A stretch of 50,158 nt of DNA. Source: Ruminococcus sp. GTDB lineage: Bacteria > Bacillota > Clostridia > Oscillospirales > Ruminococcaceae. Under the pieces are notes generated by a model. The model ran no database searches. It was given only the letters and a program-made list of their open reading frames with translations, and had not been told where the DNA came from. The stretch lies in the NCBI GenBank assembly GCA_017397925.1, contig JAFQHO010000051.1, positions 1-50,158 on the forward strand, written 5' to 3'. Shown piece by piece: positions 412 to 45,670 of this stretch; the stretch's first letter is position 1, and the number at the start of each line of letters is the position of its first letter. The position numbers and the translations under genes are program-made.

Positions 412-435
412 GGGCGAGCAATGCTCGCCCCTACA
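412..435. repeat. 24-bp REP-like palindrome with CCTACA tail
   Basis: GGGCGAGC and GCTCGCCC form a palindrome around AAT, followed by CTACA. The same unit, or its reverse complement, occurs at 23760-23783 and 23932-23955 inside a RAYT gene, and in degenerate form at 45652-45670. Here it is intergenic, downstream of the response regulator. Confidence 0.85.
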
Positions 436-464
436 ATTGGCTATATTACGTTATTTTATATAGA

Positions 465-486
465 GGTGGATAATATCCGCCCCTAC
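465..486. repeat. REP-like palindrome, GGATAATATCC variant, degenerate
   Basis: The core GGATAATATCC is flanked by imperfect G-rich and C-rich arms and ends in CCCCTAC. It is the same variant as the intact copy at 8849-8872 and lies just downstream of the response regulator stop. Confidence 0.7.
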
Positions 487-8848: not shown

Positions 8849-8872
8849 GGGCGGATAATATCCGCCCCTACA
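8849..8872. repeat. 24-bp REP-like palindrome, GGATAATATCC variant
   Basis: GGGCGGATA and TATCCGCCC pair perfectly and CCTACA follows. It has the same length and tail as the GAGCAATGCTC variant but a different inner stem with compensatory changes. Confidence 0.85.
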
Positions 8873-23551: not shown

Positions 23552-23577
23552 AAATCCCCCGAAATTTCGGGGGATTT
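23552..23577. terminator. Bidirectional terminator between glnN and the RAYT gene
   Basis: AAATCCCCCGAAA and TTTCGGGGGATTT form a perfect 26-base palindrome. It begins 6 bases after the glnN stop and touches the stop codon of the convergent RAYT gene. Confidence 0.85.
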
Positions 23578-24059
23578 TAATATTTTTCCTTATTATGAAA
23601 TTTACAACACCATCGCACAGGGTTTTCATAGATATATTTTATATGTTCCTCATAATCCAAGCGATTACGTATTATATGGTCAAAAAATGACTTTTGCCAG
23701 ATTGAATAACCTATTTTCTTTGTAATATATCCTTTCATTTGCTGAACGACACGATTAGATGTAGGGGCGAGCAGTGCTCGCCCAAAATCATCGCCACATA
23801 TTGACAATAAAAAATGAATATGATCTGGCATAATAACGTAATGCTTTATTTCAATAGCTGGGTAAACCTGATGTATGTTTTTTATCGCTTCTTCTACTAT
23901 TTTACCTATTTCAGACAAGATTATATCTTGTGGGCGAGCAATGCTCGCCCCTACATTTTCCCAAAAATAATTCTTTTTATCTTTAGCACATATCGTTATA
24001 AAATATGTTCCTGGACTGCCATAATCATAATCTTTTAACCGATTAGGCTTTCTTTCCAT
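23577..24059 (-). CDS. REP-associated tyrosine transposase (RAYT, Y1/HUH family) carrying two REP-like palindromes in frame
   Basis: The 160-residue protein is a Y1_Tnp/TnpA_REP relative: GTYFITICAKDKKNYFW, the HUH metal motif in MPDHIHFLL (H80, H82), VVQQMKGYITKKIG, SIWQKSFFDHIIR and HIKYIYENPVRW, whose Tyr residues include the likely nucleophile. RAYTs are single-copy transposases that act on cognate REP palindromes. Here 24-bp palindromes at 23932-23955 and 23760-23783 lie within the gene in opposite orientations. They encode NVGASIARP (residues 35-43) and GRALLAPT (93-100). Both are 8 codons long, free of stops, and fall in the variable loops either side of the HUH core. The gene starts 12 bases after the pyrB stop with no clear ribosome binding site. 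Length and conserved motifs look intact. Confidence 0.88.
   Translation of the reverse strand: MERKPNRLKDYDYGSPGTYFITICAKDKKNYFWENVGASIARPQDIILSEIGKIVEEAIKNIHQVYPAIEIKHYVIMPDHIHFLLSICGDDFGRALLAPTSNRVVQQMKGYITKKIGYSIWQKSFFDHIIRNRLDYEEHIKYIYENPVRWCCKFHNKEKY
23760..23783. repeat. REP-like palindrome inside the RAYT gene (copy B)
   Basis: TGTAGGGGCGAGC and GTGCTCGCCC on the plus strand. It encodes GRALLAPT on the minus strand. It is the inverse orientation of copy A, and its central base differs (CAGTG versus CAATG). Confidence 0.92.
23932..23955. repeat. REP-like palindrome inside the RAYT gene (copy A)
   Basis: The 24 bases are identical to the intergenic unit at 412-435. On the minus strand they encode VGASIARP together with one base of the next codon. 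Confidence 0.92.
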
Positions 24060-45651: not shown

Positions 45652-45670
45652 GGGCGAGCAATACTCGCCC
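45652..45670. repeat. REP-like palindrome with an altered tail
   Basis: GGGCGAGC and ACTCGCCC pair with one mismatch and the CCTACA tail is replaced by TGTA. It lies between the YhfC-type gene and rmuC, just before the rmuC ribosome binding site. Confidence 0.7.

Follow-up and report, generated by a model that had tools for sequence, protein, structure and literature searches.

The gene of a domesticated transposase, a RAYT, in the 50,158-nt stretch of Ruminococcus sp. DNA analysed here (the window) belongs to a clade of RAYT transposases that carry REP palindromes inside their own coding sequence. Two inverted units occupy fixed, conserved sites on either side of the HUH core, the type of the units is linked to the sequence of the core and of the following helix (alpha3), and different types turn over at one orthologous chromosomal place. 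Based on sequence comparison, we propose that units, core and alpha3 probably form one specificity module containing the DNA that it recognises, with a probability of about 0.6. This arrangement bears on the question of how specificity changes jointly in a RAYT and its REPs, with the presumed recognition part and its target written in one DNA stretch.

The RAYT gene and its two in-gene units

The product of the gene has the Y1 HUH transposase fold with the HUH motif and the catalytic tyrosine, and H80, H82 and Y142 are invariant in 70 aligned proteins. It matches the Pfam family Y1_Tnp (PF01797) with 24.8 bits (cut-off 23). The NCBIfam model NF047646 gives 69.4 bits, below its cut-off of 80, so that the NCBI name is not earned and the wider RAYT reading rests on the other tests. 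The protein motifs are DHIH, WQ and YIYENP, and the consensus of the clade is NHIH, WQ and YIENNP.

In each 24-bp in-gene unit, a GTAG tag and one further base accompany a 19-bp palindrome, which makes it a REP of the GTAG type (Table 1). The N-side unit reads TGTAG followed by GGGCGAGCATTGCTCGCCC on the minus strand and encodes VGASIARP (residues 36-43), which the structural model places between strand 17-25 and helix 50-60. The C-side unit reads TGTAG followed by GGGCGAGCAGTGCTCGCCC on the plus strand and encodes GRALLAPT (residues 93-100), predicted to lie between strand 80-87 and helix 101-116. The latter helix aligns with the stretch of E. coli TnpAREP containing K82, a residue described as part of the DNA-binding helix alpha3 and as contacting a REP base (PMC8266576).

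The initial annotation had claimed two in-frame 24-bp palindromes of opposite orientation inside a RAYT-like gene, flanking the HUH motif in variable loops, with the N-side one identical to an intergenic unit. Both palindromes were confirmed, the match to the intergenic unit is letter for letter, and the loops are indeed variable. The sequence evidence likewise agrees with the gene being a RAYT and the palindromes its probable cognate REPs.

Table 1. Positions of the RAYT gene, its parts and related units in the window
Feature	Position	Strand	Description
RAYT (TnpAREP-like Y1 HUH transposase) gene	23577..24059	-	160 aa
N-side in-gene REP	23932..23955	-	GTAG tag 23951-23954 and 19-bp palindrome 23932-23950
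C-side in-gene REP	23760..23783	+	inverted relative to the N-side unit; GTAG tag 23761-23764 and 19-bp palindrome 23765-23783
Core between units	23784..23931	-	residues 44-92, contains HUH motif; co-varies with unit type in relatives
Helix after C-side unit	23712..23759	-	residues 101-116; strongest co-variation with unit type
Dispersed intergenic unit of window family	412..435	-	identical to 23932-23955
Diverged unit of window family	45652..45670	.	one mismatch, without GTAG tag

Unit sites and unit families among relatives

A genus-wide search revealed RAYT matches in 53 of 125 genomes, and a scan of named genomes gave 59 loci. From 128 screened loci, including 40 further stretches, 109 near-complete genes were kept (profile score of at least 100 and span of at least 115 positions; broken or partial genes were dropped). 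Based on a palindrome score, 89 of these genes have units at both sites, whereas 14 have one unit only (N-side 4, C-side 10) and six have neither. A stricter GTAGG rule gives 90 N units and 97 C units, and 87 of the 109 genes have both, inverted to each other and at the same two sites. The 97 GTAGG-anchored C units lie between HuH and Y, and 6 or more of the 8 pairs are formed in 95 of them. At least 7 of the 8 outer pairs are formed in 87 of the 90 N units and 93 of the 97 C units, compared with 1.2% of 48,423 windows taken from other parts of these ORFs, a background unmatched for GTAGG and G+C. Unit lengths are 19 or 22 nt (3n+1) in 87 of 90 N units and 91 of 97 C units.

Alignment of the homologues, which had been suggested as a check, revealed that the residues of the window gene are not common to its relatives, which hold other palindromes at the same two spots. 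Other readings fared less well. With both units present in the same orientation in 87 of 109 relatives, the arrangement is neither private to one gene nor of recent insertion, double insertion into this RAYT explains too little, and the same is true of selection for a repeat that does no harm in coding DNA. A recent double insertion private to the window gene was rejected, and an assembly artefact is unlikely because the arrangement is also found in G009, an assembly of 3 contigs.

The 99 genes with units represent 23 unit families, defined by single linkage at 2 mismatches, which merged the near types GGAACGCC, GGGAGGCC and GGGACGCC. The N unit of a gene and its C unit in inverted form show an identity of 0.964 (n = 86, 52 of them exact), against 0.725 (maximum 0.770) when units are shuffled among genes; in L114 and L118, the two units come from different families. 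Stem pairs 6, 7 and 8 of the 19-nt class show all four Watson-Crick types, indicating compensatory changes; among distinct units, pairing at these positions is preserved in 24-26 of 26 on the N side and 29-31 of 31 on the C side. Pair 7 of the 22-nt class frequently fails to form, being found in 5 of 12 distinct N units and 8 of 13 distinct C units. Conservation within types over the clustered families is biased by that clustering, and a set of 75 pairs with core identity of at least 0.75 is fairer; here the mean unit divergence per bin was 0.01-0.14, with core third positions reaching 0.5-0.7.

Record titles of the relatives include Clostridia, Defluviitaleaceae, Synergistaceae, Burkholderiales and Spirochaetes, although these are MAG labels and may be binning errors. 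Both units are also present in a phage-labelled scaffold (L162) and an IMG/VR contig (L152). A phage or plasmid home was rejected, as the matches are few (one phage-labelled and 20 plasmid records, all below 60% identity; 4 loci in viral contigs). In L125, a RAYT with the N unit and, by score, without the C unit lies inside an open frame of 841 codons.

The clade shares the Y1 HUH fold (4er8), GTAG-tagged palindromes and dispersed copies with the REPtrons of E. coli, Pseudomonas and others. However, the REPs of REPtrons flank the transposase gene, whereas around the window gene and 84 others of the 99 genes with units, the 500 nt on each side contain no unit of the same type at up to 3 mismatches. 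For 78 of these 85 genes, both flanks were covered over at least 400 nt; the other 14 genes do have such a unit. Under a strict rule for any GTAG palindrome, the flanks of 90 of the 99 genes have none. No in-gene unit was found in eight genes of more distantly related RAYTs taken for comparison (E. coli, Spirosoma, Leptolinea, Gloeocapsa, Chloroflexota, P. aeruginosa, Chromobacterium and the IMG/VR locus L153; the partial matches L154 and L155 were left out). GTAG palindromes occur in the 500-nt flanks of six of them, with none for Spirosoma and L153, and the Gloeocapsa copy has an internal stop.

REPINs are inverted REP doublets able to pair with each other. Their spacer is short, non-coding and dispersed, whereas the units of the window gene enclose 148 nt of protein-coding catalytic core. 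Rickettsia palindromic elements decorate various unrelated genes; in-frame palindromes are common to both, but those of the window clade occupy two fixed sites in the enzyme's own gene. Palindromic DNA in frame inside genes (the Rickettsia elements) and REPs inside other genes are described by Di Nocera 2013 (PMC3733652).

In-frame in-gene REPs are shared with the tnpAREP genes of subclass 2.4, equated with Bertels group 4 in a table of Quentin et al. 2018 (PMC6006769). According to that article, they generally lie between HuH and Y and are additional to flanking REPs, whereas the window clade is mostly without flanking ones. The table row of the subclass (NH[IFV]H, WQ, YIxNNP) fits the consensus of the window clade; the window protein itself reads DHIH, WQ and YIYENP. 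The article judged these in-gene REPs peripheral and cited tnpAREP-REP co-evolution; no second site before HuH, inverted identical pair, type-linked core and alpha3, or replacement at one locus was found in the sections of it compared here. In-gene in-frame REPs were already known in 2018, but paired inverted units and module turnover were not found in the titles and abstracts searched in one open-access collection; PMC2817692 and PMC3686654 were also consulted.

Linkage of unit type to core and alpha3

Homology of both flanks defines orthologous chromosomal places in the genus, with 34, 26, 2 and 2 genes at the first to the fourth. Different unit types occupy the same first (gyrB, 3 unit families) and second place (thrS, 8 families). 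Profile searches assigned the neighbouring genes in three loci, L141, L120 and the window: in L141 the first place lies between remB (just after recF) and gyrB, and in L120 the second precedes thrS. At the gyrB place, 31 of 34 genes end 3-4 nt before a gyrB-like start. The third place comprises the window gene and its closest relative L017 (87% identical), in which the frame is broken near residue 26 and both units are intact. A RAYT between the recF-remB stretch and gyrB was seen in L141 (2607-5373) and 33 further loci. As REPs in E. coli have been called gyrase targets (PMC3733652), a REP enzyme beside gyrB deserves a look.

The unit type follows the core and alpha3 more closely than the gene ends. 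For 59 genus genes, the tree of core and alpha3 requires 14 type changes (minimum 13 for 14 types), compared with 25-26 on the gene-end trees and about 40 with shuffled labels, a shuffle that ignores relatedness. The corresponding numbers for core with alpha3 versus ends are 2 versus 9 at the gyrB place (30 genes) and 8 versus 11 at the thrS place (24 genes). Among 65 genus genes, the protein identity of same-type and different-type pairs is 0.71 and 0.43 in the core and 0.79 and 0.38 in alpha3, compared with 0.75 and 0.62 at the N end and 0.75 and 0.55 at the C end. At the DNA level, with finer types (first 8 nt of the unit), the excess identity of same-type over different-type pairs at both these chromosomal places peaks over alpha3 (0.22-0.26) and drops to 0.01-0.03 over columns 133-156; over the N end it is not nil, with 0.03-0.09 for genes at the gyrB place and -0.01 to 0.11 for those at the thrS place.

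The pairs L079/L081 and L088/L141 have 88-95% identity at the protein ends, 50-59% in the core and 39% in alpha3, and their DNA with flanks aligns at 81-83% throughout. Altogether, 110 gene pairs of unlike type show at least 70% identity at both protein ends. With these pairs and 23 families in 99 genes, it could be possible to infer the recognition code from sequence and put it to a direct test.

In the proposed specificity module, two REPs, which in ordinary REPtrons lie outside the gene, would have moved from the flanks to inverted positions on either side of the HUH core. Core and alpha3 would enable the protein to recognise, on single-stranded DNA, those GTAG hairpins that belong to its own type, and the in-gene pair would act as a built-in substrate that keeps substrate and enzyme linked. 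Replacing the module would therefore bring its own REP and seed a new REP population, while the old population would decay. Homologous recombination through the conserved ends would suffice for module exchange, and the RAYT's own action may also achieve it. If true, this would show a way in which an enzyme and its substrate stay together through recombination and transfer. Type I restriction HsdS proteins undergo shuffling of their target-recognition domains, and by analogy a specificity module may be exchanged between conserved gene ends in the window clade; unlike the latter, to our knowledge, HsdS does not contain its own target sequence.

It is also possible, although we suggest this only tentatively, that REP-core-REP-alpha3 is a mobile self-describing cassette, which would replace resident modules at fixed RAYT loci and start a genome-wide REP population each time. 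One of these loci lies inside the recF-remB-gyrB operon, and replacement perhaps proceeds through RAYT action at resident REPs. The latter is hinted at by L139 and L141, which carry N units of unlike type in tandem: an N unit of another family lies just outside the current N unit, which matches their C unit. Alternatively, the type-core linkage may reflect descent and selection without cassette transfer.

Genome-wide copies and alternative explanations

REPs were counted in 54 of the 125 genomes of the genus, namely 44 of the 53 with a RAYT match (the other nine have partial, broken or weak matches) and 10 picked without one. Exact copies of the window unit, in-gene ones included, number 21 in the source genome, 8 in G060, one in G073 and none in the other 51. 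G060 is the only other genome of the 54 whose RAYT carries the window unit, so the count with and without the RAYT, another check proposed in the initial annotation, shows this unit as a repeat in just those two genomes. The number of further copies has a median of 39, 21 and 20 for types A, B and C in genomes with a RAYT of that type (n = 9, 12 and 10) and of 15, 1 and 8 in genomes with a RAYT of another type (p = 0.0006, 0.0002 and 0.02, relatedness ignored). Where a RAYT was not found (n = 10), all three medians are 0 (ranges 0-16, 0-5 and 0-4).

Against the proposed module, many genomes hold units whose RAYT type they lack. Old unit types in genomes now carrying another type may be a record of past occupants. 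G043 has no RAYT match, yet it contains 16, 5 and 4 units of types A, B and C; its RAYT was perhaps lost or left unassembled. Further copies are few in G096 (2 of type B) and G118 (3 of type C), and G081 (type C) has no exact copies beyond the gene. An open GTAG pattern finds matches in each of the 12 genomes to which named loci led. Individual places were compared in six of these, outside the genus: units with the in-gene arms occur elsewhere several times in the genomes of L031, L038 and L073 and once in that of L042, and those of L023 and L032 have none outside the gene.

Autoregulation is a serious rival, even if we consider it rather improbable. The RAYT might bind the in-gene hairpins, or a long stem between the N and C units, in mRNA or single-stranded DNA and limit its own expression, and type-matching would be maintained by the need of the protein to recognise its own mRNA. 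The predicted minimum-energy fold of the mRNA pairs the N with the C unit across the core (z -4.3 versus 100 shuffles), the units persist despite few or unseen further copies (the genome of L023, G096, G118), and the RAYTs at two places are close to neighbour genes. However, autoregulation alone would leave the genome-wide same-type copies unexplained, and it gives no account of why other RAYT lines have their units outside the gene.

Less likely still, the units could be old REP insertions in two tolerant loops, functionless in the gene and kept similar to each other and to the REPs of the genome by gene conversion. This would be in line with the in-frame REPs described in unrelated genes (PMC3733652) and in subclass 2.4 tnpAREP genes (PMC6006769), and with the lower confidence of the structural model at the unit sites (76, 79 and 71 for blocks 31-40, 41-50 and 91-100). 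But conversion should also bring in other abundant REP types, of which the genomes hold several families, whereas the type hardly changes without the core. In addition, the two sites with their orientations are also seen outside the genus, and 85 of 99 genes lack a flanking unit of their own type. An ancestral coding sequence constrained by the protein and palindromic by chance, to which P99 and T100, nearly invariant where the C block ends, and the V-G consensus at the start of the N block might point, is rejected by the compensatory pairs in 23 families and the N-C identity far above the shuffled value, neither of which is expected from protein constraint.

In the source genome (G000, an assembly 90% complete), a protein search with the window RAYT found no match except itself. 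A second RAYT as donor was rejected, since the other Y1 match (G000:C2, 38 bits) appears from its sequence to resemble an ordinary IS200-type ORF. The pattern GGGCGNNCNNNGNNCGCCC with up to one mismatch has 4 matches in the window versus 0.04 expected. In the whole source genome, GGGCGAGCANTGCTCGCCC is found at 21 exact places, in-gene ones counted, and at 41 places with up to 2 mismatches, 7 of which represent another unit, GGGCGACC..GGTCGCCC; a reversed-pattern control gave 0 matches. A type-A RAYT was not found in this assembly despite 31 type-A units (GGGCGGATNNNATCCGCCC), one of them at 8849-8867 of the window. The one RAYT match of the source genome is not of the GGGCGACC partner type. 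In four stretches (L146-L149; window 412-480), dispersed units of the window family have an inverted partner unit, GGGCGACC, some 50 bp away, with flanks that are conserved and A+T-rich.
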